From Dactylosporangium sp. (lineage in GTDB: Bacteria > Actinomycetota > Actinomycetes > Mycobacteriales > Micromonosporaceae): a stretch of DNA of 33,115 nt. A model generated the notes under the pieces. It worked only from the letters and a program-made list of their open reading frames with translations, searched no databases and was not told the origin of the DNA. This document shows, in pieces, positions 1 through 4,478 of the stretch (its first letter is position 1; every line of letters starts with the position of its first letter). The translations under genes were made by a program, and so were the position numbers. The stretch is from NCBI GenBank assembly GCA_025965915.1, contig JAOPWA010000522.1, forward strand, positions 1 to 33,115. The letters run 5' to 3'.

Positions 1-1244
1 AGGTCTCGCGGCACGATCGTCGGGATGACCTTCTCCAGCACGACCTCGCGGGTGATCAGAACGCGGCCGATGTCGGGGTTGCTCGGCACCTCGTACATGA
101 CCGAGAGGAGGACCTCTTCCATGATCGCGCGCAGGCCTCGGGCGCCAGTGCCCCGCAGGACCGCCTGGTCGGCGATCGCTTCCAGGGCCTCCGGCGCGAA
201 CTCGAGCTCGACGCCGTCAAGCTCGAAAAGACGCTGGTACTGCCGGACGAGCGCGTTACGCGGCTCGGTCAGGATTCGCACCAGCGCCGCGCAGTCGAGA
301 CTGCGCACGCTCGTGATCACGGGGAGCCGGCCGATGAACTCCGGGATCATGCCGAACTTGAGCAGGTCCTCGGGCATGACCTCGGCGAAGATGTCGTCGA
401 GATTGCGCTCGGAAACCGACCGGAGGTGTGCGCCGAAGCCGAGCCCCTTCTTACCGACCCGCGACTCGACGATTCGGTCCAGACCGGCAAACGCCCCACC
501 GACGATGAACAGAACGTTGGTGGTGTCGATCTGGATGAACTCCTGGTGCGGGTGCTTGCGACCGCCCTGTGGCGGTACGTTGGCGACCGTTCCCTCGATG
601 ATCTTCAAGAGCGCTTGCTGCACGCCCTCGCCGGAAACGTCACGGGTGATCGAGGGGTTTTCGGACTTCCGGGCGATCTTGTCGACCTCGTCGATGTAGA
701 CGATGCCGGTCTCGGCGCGACGGACGTCGTAGTCGGCCGCCTGGATCAGCTTGAGGAGGATGTTTTCGACGTCCTCCCCCACGTAGCCCGCCTCGGTGAG
801 CGCCGTGGCGTCAGCGATGGCGAACGGCACGTTCAACATCCGGGCGAGGGTCTGTGCCAGATGGGTCTTGCCGCATCCGGTGGGGCCGATGAGGAGGATG
901 TTGGATTTTGCGAGCTCAACGTTGTCGGCGCCGGACGGACCAGCAGAGTCCGCCTGGATCCGCTTGTAGTGGTTGTAGACCGCAACCGCCAGGCCCTTCT
1001 TGGCCTGCTCCTGACCCACCACGTACTGGTCCAGGAAGGCGCAGATCTCCATCGGCTTGGGCAGTTCGTCCCACTTGACGTCGCCGGACTCGGCGAGCTC
1101 CTCTTCGATGATCTCATTGCACAGGTCGATGCACTCGTCGCAGATGTAAACACCCGGACCTGCGATGAGCTTCTTCACCTGCTTCTGCGACTTCCCACAG
1201 AAGGAGCACTTGAGTAGGTCGCCACCGTCGCCGATCCGTGCCAC
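1..1244 (-). CDS. clpX: ATP-dependent Clp protease ATP-binding subunit ClpX (C-terminus cut by window edge)
   Basis: ClpX is the AAA+ unfoldase that feeds substrates to the ClpP1P2 peptidase in the cytoplasm. About 414 codons are present; the family is about 425-430 aa, so only the last residues are missing. The N-terminal zinc-binding domain has Cys13, Cys16, Cys35 and Cys38. Walker A is GPTGCGKT at residues 120-127, and Walker B has Asp185-Glu186 in IVYIDEVDK. The substrate-recognition/IGF-type loop (KKGLGFGA) and the sensor-2 region ([12 protein letters not shown]) are also visible. The start is taken as GTG at 1242-1244 because it gives [16 protein letters not shown], the usual actinobacterial N-terminus, with GGGAG eight bases upstream. 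It follows clpP2 in the same direction, but a strong hairpin lies between them, so it probably also has its own promoter in 1245-1607. Confidence 0.97.
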
Positions 1245-1607
1245 CTACGTATCTCCCTGCCCTCGGCCGGACCATCGTCCGGTCTGCCCCCACGCCGAAA
1301 CGCCCGACGCTTCTCGGCTCTCGGTGCCAGCCGCTGCCTCGACGTTACCCGGTTACGGGCACTTATCCGACCCCTGCACGTACGGTGTCTTCACTCTTGC
1401 CGTTCGGCACCGGATGCGTTAGCAGCCAATCCTGGCCGAACGACCATCGGCGGCGCGTCTACCCGTCGACAACGCCACTACAGCGGAGTCTGCGCAACCC
1501 ACGTCTTCAACGCTGATGGTACCGGCCATGGGCGCTCGGACGAGAGGGTCAAGCACCCGATTTGCTGCTCAATTCCACGCCTAACGCCGCTAGGGGGCGG
1601 AGAGGCC
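1245..1607. other. Non-coding leader/promoter region of clpX
   Basis: This is about 360 bases between the clpX start and the hairpin after clpP2. I see no convincing gene: the short open frames have no recognisable products. It presumably holds the clpX promoter and 5' UTR, but I could not pick a -35/-10 pair, and I found no GTTCGC-N5-GCG ClgR-type site here, unlike upstream of clpP1. Confidence 0.5.
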
Positions 1608-1640
1608 GAGGGGCGGATGGCTAACCGCCGTCCGCCCCTC
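1608..1640 (-). terminator. Hairpin terminator after clpP2
   Basis: The arms (1608-1621 and 1627-1640) form a 14-bp stem with one G-U type pair around a 5-base loop, starting 11 bases past the clpP2 stop. There is no T-tract, which is common for GC-rich actinobacterial terminators. It may attenuate read-through from clpP1P2 into clpX. Confidence 0.75.
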
Positions 1641-1651
1641 CCCCACAGTTG

Positions 1652-2311
1652 TCAGCGCGCCGCTGGCGCGAGCGCTGACTTCTTGCGACTAGCGAGCACC
1701 TGGTCGACCAGGCCGTAGTCCTTGGCCTCCGCAGCGGTCAGAATCTTGTCCCGGTCAATGTCCTTGCGGACCTTGTCCGACGTCTGGCCGGAATGCAGGG
1801 CGACCAGATTTTCCAGGAGGGTCCGCATCCGAAGGATCTCGCGCGCCTGGATCTCGATGTCGGATCCCTGCCCGTATCCACCCTCCGTAGCCGGCTGGTG
1901 GATGATGATCCGCGAGTTGGGCAACGCCATCCGCTTGCCGGGTGTGCCGGCCCCCAGGAGGACGGCCGCCGCCGAAGCCGCCTGCCCCAGGCAGACGGTC
2001 TGGATGTCCGGCCGCACGAACTGCATCGTGTCATAGATCGCCGTCATGGCGGTAAACGAGCCACCCGGCGAGTTGATGTACATCACGATGTCGCGGTCAG
2101 GGTCCATCGACTCGAGCGTGAGCAGCTGGGCCATCACGTCGTTGGCGGACGCGTCGTCGATCTGGACGCCGAGGAAGATGATCCGCTCCTCGAACATCTT
2201 GTTGTACGGGTTCATCTCCTTGATCCCGTACGACGTGCGCTCGACGAACGACGGCAGGATGTATCGGTTGTGAACCTCGCGCATGCCCGAGGACAGGCTC
2301 AGGTCAGTCAT
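1652..2311 (-). CDS. clpP2: ATP-dependent Clp protease proteolytic subunit ClpP2
   Basis: This is the 219-aa serine peptidase subunit of the heteromeric ClpP1P2 tetradecamer that works with ClpX/ClpC in the cytoplasm. The catalytic triad can be read as Ser113 (GQAASAAAV), His138 (RIIIHQP) and Asp188 (DIDRDK). The YINSPGGS oxyanion-loop motif is at 78-85. The start is ATG at 2309-2311, because GAGGAG overlapping the clpP1 stop codon sits just upstream and the protein begins [10 protein letters not shown]. Only 11 bases separate it from clpP1, so the two are co-transcribed. A longer open frame runs upstream in this frame to about 3076, but it overlaps clpP1 and is not the protein. The C-terminal tail is basic and Ala-rich ([12 protein letters not shown]). 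Confidence 0.97.
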
Positions 2312-2322
2312 CGTGCTTCTCC

Positions 2323-2955
2323 TCAGTCCCGGGTCCCGGCGCCGGCCGGCACCTGGCGCGCCCCGGACACAACGTGGTCGATGAAGCCGTAGTCCAGTGC
2401 CTCCTGCGAGGTGAACCAGCGGTCGCGGTCGGAGTCGGCCTCGATCTGGTCCTGCGGCTGGCCCGTGTGGAAGGACACCCGCTCCTGGAACATGCGCTTC
2501 GTGTAGAGCATCTGCTCGGCCTGGATCGCGATGTCCGACGCGGTGCCGCCGATACCGCCGGAAGGCTGGTGCATCATGATCCGGGCGTGGGGCAGCGCGA
2601 ACCGCTTGCCCTTGGCGCCGGCACACAACAGCAACTGCCCCATCGAGGCGGCCAAGCCCATGGCTACCGTCACCACGTCGTTGCCGACGAACTGCATCGT
2701 GTCGTAAATCGCCATGCCAGCGGTGACCGAACCACCGGGCGAGTTGATCCAGAGGTTGATGTCGCGGTCCGGGTCTTCCGCGGCAAGCAGCAGCAGCTGC
2801 GCGCAGATCCGGTTGGCGACCTGGTCGTTGACCTCGCTGCCGAGCAGGATGATCCGCTCCTTGAGCAGCCGGTTGTAGACCGAGTCGTCGAGGGCACCGA
2901 GGCCGGCGTCGGCGCCTCGCGCGACCTGGGTCGCTGGAATGTGAAGGTCGGTCAT
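2323..2955 (-). CDS. clpP1: ATP-dependent Clp protease proteolytic subunit ClpP1
   Basis: This 210-aa ClpP-family serine peptidase pairs with ClpP2; in actinobacteria the active enzyme is usually the mixed P1P2 complex. The triad is Ser104 (GLAASMGQ), His129 (RIMMHQP) and Asp178 (DSDRDR), with WINSPGGS at 69-76. The start is ATG at 2953-2955 ([10 protein letters not shown]), with AAGGG seven bases upstream. The frame stays open to 3048, but the extra N-terminal residues are Arg/Ser-rich, overlap the putative ClgR operator and are unlike ClpP. It is the first gene of the clpP1-clpP2 unit and lies downstream of tig, from which a 14-bp hairpin separates it. Confidence 0.97.
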
Positions 2956-3031
2956 GGCAGCCCTTCGGGAGAGTCCTTGATATGCCGACACTAACCGCTG
3001 GGACTGACGCGACGGTCCGGCTGAGCGCATT

Positions 3032-3045
3032 GTTCGCTCTGAGCG
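3032..3045. promoter_or_regulatory. Putative ClgR operator upstream of clpP1P2
   Basis: The sequence GTTCGC-TCTGA-GCG (3032-3045) matches the GTTCGC-N5-GCG pattern described for ClgR, the actinobacterial activator of clp genes. It lies about 77-90 bases upstream of the clpP1 start, a normal activator distance. An overlapping inverted repeat, GAGCG-N7-CGCTC, extends it on one side. The match is seen directly; binding by ClgR is inference, and clgR is not in this window. Confidence 0.65.
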
Positions 3046-3073
3046 CACCTGCCCGCCGGGCCCGCTGATGAAA

Positions 3074-3105
3074 CACCTCGCACCCGCCGAGGCGGGTGCG
3101 AGGTG
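3074..3105 (-). terminator. Hairpin terminator after tig
   Basis: There is a perfect 14-bp inverted repeat (3074-3087 with 3092-3105) around a 4-base loop, nine bases past the tig stop. On the minus strand it is followed by TTTCATC, so it has a short U-tract. It separates tig from the clpP1P2 transcription unit. Confidence 0.85.
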
Positions 3106-3113
3106 GTCAAATG

Positions 3114-4478
3114 TCAGCCCTCGTGGTCATGGTCGTGGTCGTGCGCGTCACCCTCGCTGGCGGGACCGCGGAGGTCATCGAGCGAAAGCGGGTTACCCGC
3201 GCTGTCGCGGATCTTGACCCGCTCCATGACCACCGCCAGCGCCTTGCCCCGCCGGACGTCGCCGAAGACGGCGGCAGCCACGCCGGCCTGGATGAGCTGG
3301 TCGTAGTACTGCTGCGGCGAGACGCCCGCCCGCTGTGCCCGGTGGACGATCTCGTGGCCGAACTCGTCGTCGGAGACCTGAAGCTGCTCGGCGTCCGCGA
3401 GGGTGTCCAGTACGAGCTGGATCCGTACGCCCTCGACCGCCGCCTCCGACAGCTCGGTGTCGACCTCCTCCTGCGTCTTGCCCTCGGCCTGGAGGTATTC
3501 GTCCATCGAAGCGCCGATGCGCTGCAGCTGGTCGTTCATCGCCTCCTTGCGCTGCTCCACCTCGTCGCGCACGACGCCCTCCGGCGCCGGCACGTCGGAG
3601 GCCTCGACCAGCGCCTTCAGCGCCTTGTCCCGGGCGTCGTAGAGCTGCTCGACCCGCTTGACCCGCAGCAGCCGGGTACGCAGGTCCTCCCGTAGCTCAT
3701 CAAGCGTGTCGAACTCACTCGCCAACTGCGCGAAGTCGTCGTCGAGCTCGGGGAGCTGCTTCTCCTTGACCGTCCGCACGGTTACCGCCACCTCGGCCTC
3801 ACGGCCGGCGTACTCGCCACCGACGAGCTGGGTGGTGAAGGTGGTCGACTCGTCCGCGGCCATGCCGGCGAGCACCTCGTCCAGGCCCGGTAGCAGCTGA
3901 CCGCTGCCCACCTCGTGCGAGACGTTGGTAGCGGTGCCGCCCGACACCTCCTCGCCGTCAACGGTGGCGGCCAGGTCGATCTGAACGTAGTCGCCCTCGG
4001 CCGCGGCCCGCTCGACGGTCTTCAGCGTGGAGAACCGATCGCGCAACCCGCCAACCTGCTCGTCGATCTCCTCGTCGCCGATCTGGATCTCGTCGACGAC
4101 CACCTCGATCTCTTCGATCGTGGGCAGCGTGATCTCCGGGCGTACGTCGACCTCGGCGGTGAACTTCAGTGGCGCGCCGTCGGTGAACTCGGTGACCTCA
4201 ACCTCCGGACGCCCGAGCGTCTTCACCTCGTGCTCGCGCACCGCGGCGAGGAACTGCGTCGGGATCGCGTCCTGCACCGCCTCGTTCAGCACGGCACCCC
4301 GGCCCACCCGCTGGTCGATCACGGCGGTCGGAACCTTGCCGCGCCGGAAGCCTGGGACGGTGACCTGCCCGCCGATCTCACGGTAGGCCTTCTTGAGGCT
4401 CGGTTCGAGCTCGACGAACGGCACCTCGATGGCCAGCCGCACGCGGGTCGGGCCGAGAGTCTCGACGGTGCTCTTCAC
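3114..4478 (-). CDS. tig: Trigger factor (ribosome-bound chaperone and peptidyl-prolyl isomerase)
   Basis: Trigger factor docks at the ribosome exit tunnel and shields nascent chains. The protein is 454 aa, normal for the family. The N-terminal ribosome-binding domain carries the signature GFRRGKVP at residues 43-50. The central FKBP-type PPIase domain (about 150-240) contains GDYVQIDL and GSGQLLPGLDEVLAGM, and the C-terminal helical chaperone domain follows. The tail after about 440 is acidic and alternates Asp and His (DAHDHDHDHEG), as often found in actinobacterial trigger factors and possibly able to bind metal. The start is ATG at 4476-4478, preceded by a GAGGAG-like site. The conserved order tig-clpP1-clpP2-clpX links folding with degradation. 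Confidence 0.97.
   Translation of the reverse strand: MKSTVETLGPTRVRLAIEVPFVELEPSLKKAYREIGGQVTVPGFRRGKVPTAVIDQRVGRGAVLNEAVQDAIPTQFLAAVREHEVKTLGRPEVEVTEFTDGAPLKFTAEVDVRPEITLPTIEEIEVVVDEIQIGDEEIDEQVGGLRDRFSTLKTVERAAAEGDYVQIDLAATVDGEEVSGGTATNVSHEVGSGQLLPGLDEVLAGMAADESTTFTTQLVGGEYAGREAEVAVTVRTVKEKQLPELDDDFAQLASEFDTLDELREDLRTRLLRVKRVEQLYDARDKALKALVEASDVPAPEGVVRDEVEQRKEAMNDQLQRIGASMDEYLQAEGKTQEEVDTELSEAAVEGVRIQLVLDTLADAEQLQVSDDEFGHEIVHRAQRAGVSPQQYYDQLIQAGVAAAVFGDVRRGKALAVVMERVKIRDSAGNPLSLDDLRGPASEGDAHDHDHDHEG

Follow-up and report, generated by a model that had tools for sequence, protein, structure and literature searches.

Known ClgR-controlled clp genes

In related actinobacteria, clpP1P2 has previously been shown to be controlled by ClgR. 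ClgR recognises GTTCGC-5N-GCG at clpP1 (PMC9775585), and its control of clpP1P2 and clpC through CGC-N5-GCG is said to be strongly conserved among actinomycetes (PMC3613350). A perfect box is found 96 bp upstream of clpP1 in Mycobacterium tuberculosis (PMC2905415), where mutation of the box lowers clpP1P2 promoter activity 3.4-fold (PMC3613350), and in bifidobacteria ClgR boxes are present at clpP1, hrcA and clpC, with variation between strains (PMC9004370).

The clpP1 locus of Dactylosporangium sp. shares with that of Streptomyces lividans (Bellier and Mazodier 2004, as described in PMC9775585) a GTTCGC-N5-GCG box before clpP1 and a clgR gene in the genome, but it differs in that lon is reportedly affected by ClgR in S. 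lividans, whereas the 86 %-complete Dactylosporangium draft genome yielded no lon candidate above the family cut-off. The likeness to M. tuberculosis, a species absent from the loci compared here, is judged from published descriptions and lies in a clpP1 box whose upstream distance is given as 96 or about 100 bp, a one-mismatch clpC1 box and positive regulation (PMC2905415, PMC3613350). The strain-variable boxes of bifidobacteria (PMC9004370) are in line with the one-mismatch clpP1 box of one of our compared loci, L035.

The Dactylosporangium clpP1 region

The window analysed here, a stretch of 33,115 nucleotides (contig JAOPWA010000522.1 of assembly GCA_025965915.1), opens within clpX, and its minus strand bears clpX, clpP2, clpP1 and tig. 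The clpX gene (1–1244) has a GTG start, runs off the window end and scores 661.9 and 643.8 bits with NCBIfam ClpX models; clpP2 (1652–2311) and clpP1 (2323–2955) match NCBIfam NF009205 (316.3 bits, cut-off 228) and NF001368 (286.9 bits, cut-off 249) respectively, and the upstream neighbour tig (3114–4478), encoding trigger factor, matches TIGR00115 (373.7 bits, cut-off 180.2). The C-terminal tail of the trigger factor is rich in Asp, His and Glu (GDAHDHDHDHEG, window positions 3117–3152) and is possibly metal-binding, which is a guess. A perfect 15-nt hairpin at 3074–3105 (minus strand) lies between tig and the candidate ClgR promoter and could be the tig terminator. An Rfam search of positions 1200–3200 for an RNA element gave nothing at gathering score.

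A pattern search of the window confirmed the exact match to GTTCGC-N5-GCG claimed in the original prediction, GTTCGCTCTGAGCG, at 3032–3045 of the plus strand; in the sense of clpP1, on the minus strand, this candidate ClgR operator reads CGCTCAGAGCGAAC. The ATG of clpP1 is at 2955 on the minus strand, 76 bases separate gene and box, and the box thus spans 77–90 bases upstream of clpP1, close to the predicted distance of about 80 bases; its sequence also fits, as had been stated, the pattern published for ClgR at clpP1 (PMC9775585). The core of the operator is the dyad CGCTC-T-GAGCG (3035–3045, centre 3040), which is distinct from the overlapping inverted repeat GAGCG-N7-CGCTC that had been noted as well. 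The latter is indeed present at 3023–3039, but it is conserved in just two of 30 family loci, the window and its nearest relative L100, and was rejected as a second operator. Downstream of the box we recognise a putative −35-like element, GGACC, at 3014–3018, 22 bp from the box centre, and a −10 region, GTTAGTGT, at 2988–2995 (both on the minus strand), with GTT at centre+45 and TAGTGT at centre+47. A sigma-70 consensus scan returned no promoter.

By itself the 14-letter pattern is weak and not significant. It is matched three times in the window, against an expectation of 1.47 and with as many or more matches in 19 of 100 shuffles; the 6.13-Mb draft genome has 312 matches, compared with 81 for a reversed control pattern. 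The tighter pattern KCGCYN3RGCGAAC has 64 matches in the genome (11 for its reversed control), two of which have TANNNT at 45–49 bp, and at clpP1 only are GGA...GTT also in place. The other of the two, L139, with its −10 at 47 bp, sits in a 571-codon open frame and was rejected as a ClgR target; since box, −10 and GGA...GTT occur jointly at clpP1 only, a wider ClgR regulon drawn from the tight box is unsupported. The significance of the box comes from its position and conservation and not from the bare pattern, which proves little, and homologous places were therefore compared.

Conservation of the box and its distance from the promoter

The family sample consisted of the Dactylosporangium genome and 29 relatives, the 30 best loci (clpP1 was matched in 59 of 61 genomes), and the wide sample was drawn from the best 80 of a longer list of actinobacterial clpP1 loci. 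Six loci with no clpP2 next door (L017, L043, L048, L064, L067 and L069) were dropped, and L059, with too little upstream DNA, was left out of the box and spacing counts; L001 and L101 look like one species and both enter the box counts, although L001 does not enter the spacing counts. A tight box, CGCYN3RGCGAA, sought within 250 bases of clpP1, is present at 28 of the 30 loci of the family sample, where shuffles give a mean of 0.1 and at most 2, and at 49 of the 73 loci from other actinobacteria, where they give a mean of 0.3 and likewise at most 2. The site, whose fate in close relatives the original prediction had held to be decisive, is thus conserved in the genus, in the family and across actinobacteria. 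Twenty-three of the 26 clpP1 loci without a tight box have one with a single mismatch, which falls in the promoter-distal half-site in 22, and 17 of these 23 have a −10 at 46–48 bp; a one-mismatch box alone is nevertheless weak evidence, because one is also found before clpX in five of 29 family loci. The best box in the clpP1 sense has two or three mismatches in L007, L014 and L018, and L002, in which the box is on the reverse strand only, was excluded from the spacing count.

The distance from the box centre to the T of a TANNNT −10 is 46–48 bp in 70 of 75 clpP1 sites and exactly 47 in 56, against a mean of 3.6 and a maximum of 11 sites at 46–48 bp in circular shifts of the same DNA. Three sites have a spacing of 36 bp, shorter by 11 bp (L073, L124 and L127, a Corynebacterium and two genomes of one family genus), and in the remaining two it lies elsewhere. 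The box and the start codon, by comparison, are anywhere between about 55 and more than 200 bases apart. Across the aligned stretch from centre+15 to the −10, only GG(A) at centre+22 (G 74 %, G 77 % and A 55 % in 73 aligned clpP1 promoters) and C at centre+34 (73 %) stand out. With so few conserved letters before the −10, simple common descent does not explain the fixed spacing, and its constancy despite a variable leader length suggests activation by ClgR from a single, constant face of the DNA helix. A search of the ClgR literature gave nothing on this spacing in the parts of it that were covered; the original reports (Bellier and Mazodier 2004, Engels 2004/2005) lay outside that coverage, and the spacing may be in print there. 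A chance match in GC-rich DNA would agree with the shuffle and whole-genome counts of the bare pattern, but the conservation and fixed spacing across actinobacteria, held in spite of the variable leaders, leave that explanation a negligible probability.

The clpC1 promoters of relatives

The 5′ end of the Dactylosporangium clpC1 gene was not found in the draft assembly, and clpC1 was examined in relatives: of 39 matches 30 loci were taken and 28 counted, L236 (the short frame of the Dactylosporangium genome itself) and L237 (an additional copy within one genome) being left out. TWCGCTN4GCGTA precedes clpC1 in 27 of the 28, two congeners included; clpC1 of L235 and of L237 has no such box. In 24 of the 28 there is also GGAA[C/T/G]-N17-19-GTT with its GTT at centre+44 to +46. 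ClgR is reportedly joined with the sigma-H network at clpC and clpP1P2 in Corynebacterium glutamicum, as Engels is said to have described in 2004. The box and putative ECF-type GGAAC...GTT at the relatives' clpC1 would be a likeness to C. glutamicum (PMC3489674), where GGAAC-N18-19-GTT has been reported at promoters that depend on sigma-E and that overlap with sigma-H-dependent ones (PMC10012870). Compared with the ECF-type GGAAC-N18-19-GTT, the clpP1 gene of the window is preceded by just GGACC-N18-GTT, together with its TANNNT −10. Since the GTT lies at centre+45 at clpP1, matching its position at clpC1, one stress sigma factor may serve both genes, and the housekeeping factor may use the clpP1 −10 (GTTAGKGTC) as well.

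The Dactylosporangium genome also contains four short frames (211–273 codons) with two Clp_N matches each that are too short for the ATPase part (C183:7228-7653, C153:3685-4128, C137:15820-16341 and C406:650-1021; L160, L165, L171). We take these to be like the stand-alone ClpC2-type proteins of mycobacteria. A ClgR-like box, TGCGCTGTCAGCGGATA, is found 224 bases upstream of the C153 frame.

The ClgR homologue

The clgR gene that the original prediction proposed to look for is present: the genome encodes, at L081:2088-2519, a 143-aa helix–turn–helix (HTH) protein adjoining cinA, the frame before it being presumably pgsA-like, as recognised by eye. In a phmmer search of solved structures its best matches are the ClgR structures 5woq (E-value, 7.2e-24) and 3f51 (E-value, 3.5e-18), and its top NCBIfam model is ClgR, at 113.1 bits under a cut-off of 170; by these sequence matches it is a ClgR homologue. 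Its first 84 residues are matched in 29 of 30 family genomes, and the one genome without a match is 69 % complete. Another Xre-type regulator, for instance a ClgR paralogue such as PopR, could use the box in its place, given that ClgR has four further, weak matches elsewhere in the genome and that Streptomyces PopR, a ClgR paralogue, is thought to drive the clpP3clpP4 operon (PMC9765437). These further matches are only 32–36 % identical, with E-values of 4e-6 or weaker (the next best after ClgR itself has 32 % identity and an E-value of 4e-6), and the box fits the published ClgR motif and not the published PopR motif (PMC9775585), so that we consider use of the box by such a protein very improbable and retain ClgR as its probable ligand.

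The ClgR of Dactylosporangium ends in VCAA, and two terminal alanines are found in 21 of 29 family ClgR proteins, this one among them. In Streptomyces, according to a review, such an end makes ClgR a ClpP substrate (PMC9775585), and because it is a signal for destruction by ClpP1P2 there, the amount of peptidase probably exerts feedback on the protein that activates its genes. A near box, GTTCGCCCTGAGCC, lies 39 bases before the Dactylosporangium clgR gene, and both congeners lack it; among 29 clgR leaders a tight box is found only in L187 and L195, from one other genus, at −187, and a near box in L198 and L203, from another. Autoregulation of clgR is thus not general in the family and is unsupported for the Dactylosporangium genus. 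Many of the 29 clgR leaders (L179–L207) also show, by eye and uncounted, an upstream element resembling GGGTACGGTTGC.

clpX and the hairpin behind clpP2

The gap between clpP2 and clpX is 407 bases long in the window. No CGC-N5-GCG occurs in the 400 bases examined before clpX, and a tight box precedes clpX in none of 29 family loci and none of 68 other actinobacterial loci, which bears out the prediction that clpX has no ClgR site upstream. This is as expected, since the ClgR targets named in the literature consulted are clpP1P2, clpC and lon and not clpX, although within the parts of it searched no outright statement that clpX is independent of ClgR was found. A promoter-like element, GGGTCGG-N17-GGTAACGTC, is present at 1341–1373 on the minus strand with no ClgR box; GGGTCGG-N17-18-GGTA[A/C]CGTC, a pattern derived from the same family leaders in which it was counted, lies 93–189 bases upstream of clpX in 25 of 29 family loci and is found at clpP1 in none of 30. 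In L021, an Ornithinimicrobium MAG, TGCGCTGTCAGCGGACA, a ClgR-like box without the final GAA, is located 123 bases before the clpX start.

The hairpin described between clpP2 and clpX is also there, just after clpP2 at 1608–1640 (minus strand), with 14-nt arms that are 93 % complementary; having no U tract, it is a possible terminator or attenuator. In 25 of 28 family genomes the 72 bases that follow the clpP2 stop fold more stably than shuffled sequence, at z below −2; the median is −4.1, the window has −2.26, and L104, L117 and L120 are the exceptions. It might be argued that read-through joins clpX to clpP1P2 in a single unit under ClgR, so that clpX too would be ClgR-controlled: 98 of 110 loci, not all of which extend as far as clpX, have the genes in the order clpP1, clpP2, clpX on the same strand; the terminator scan, which requires a T run, does not list the 1608–1640 hairpin; and clpX and clpC1 go up together when M. 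tuberculosis is reaerated (PMC2905415), which counts against a clean split. The folding signal after clpP2, the conserved element that clpX has of its own and the 407-base gap make a single unit unlikely; with that element and the hairpin, read-through into clpX is possible but unneeded, and clpX probably has its own promoter. The contrast between clpP1 and clpX in the box, together with this element and the hairpin, supports the original suggestion that the peptidase is under ClgR control and the unfoldase is regulated differently.

A model for the Dactylosporangium clp genes

We consider it very probable that the box is a ClgR operator that activates clpP1P2, with clpC1 probably included and clpX outside. 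A ClgR dimer would bind CGCTC-T-GAGCG about 56–60 bp upstream of the transcription start and help RNA polymerase, from a fixed face of the DNA, at the weak promoter GGA...GTTAGTGT; it would probably also activate clpC1, where relatives have a like-spaced box and an ECF-sigma-type promoter. The clpX gene, with its own promoter behind the hairpin, would stand outside ClgR control, and the level of ClpP1P2 would probably act back on ClgR through the Ala-Ala end. The clpP1 site thus appears to be a well-supported further case of known ClgR control, to which the fixed distance between box and promoter is an addition, and it would extend a known stress switch to Dactylosporangium, a genus for which the literature searched, as far as it was covered, held no earlier description.

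On balance we lean towards a broader proposal, in which, throughout the actinobacteria, the box and the clpP1 promoter form a rigid module, the box centre lying 22 bp before the GGA element and 45 bp before the GTT, with variation rare apart from the loss of one helical turn and with the same ruler used at the family's clpC1, whose promoter would be of the ECF type. ClgR would then be a face-of-helix activator working with one stress sigma factor, perhaps together with the housekeeping factor, at both promoters, so that the peptidase and ClpC1 would be set together and ClpX apart. With such a ruler, the way in which ClgR contacts RNA polymerase could be put to a simple test, and ClgR targets could be picked out more sharply than with the loose 14-letter pattern, the 64 tight boxes of the Dactylosporangium genome being reduced to one.
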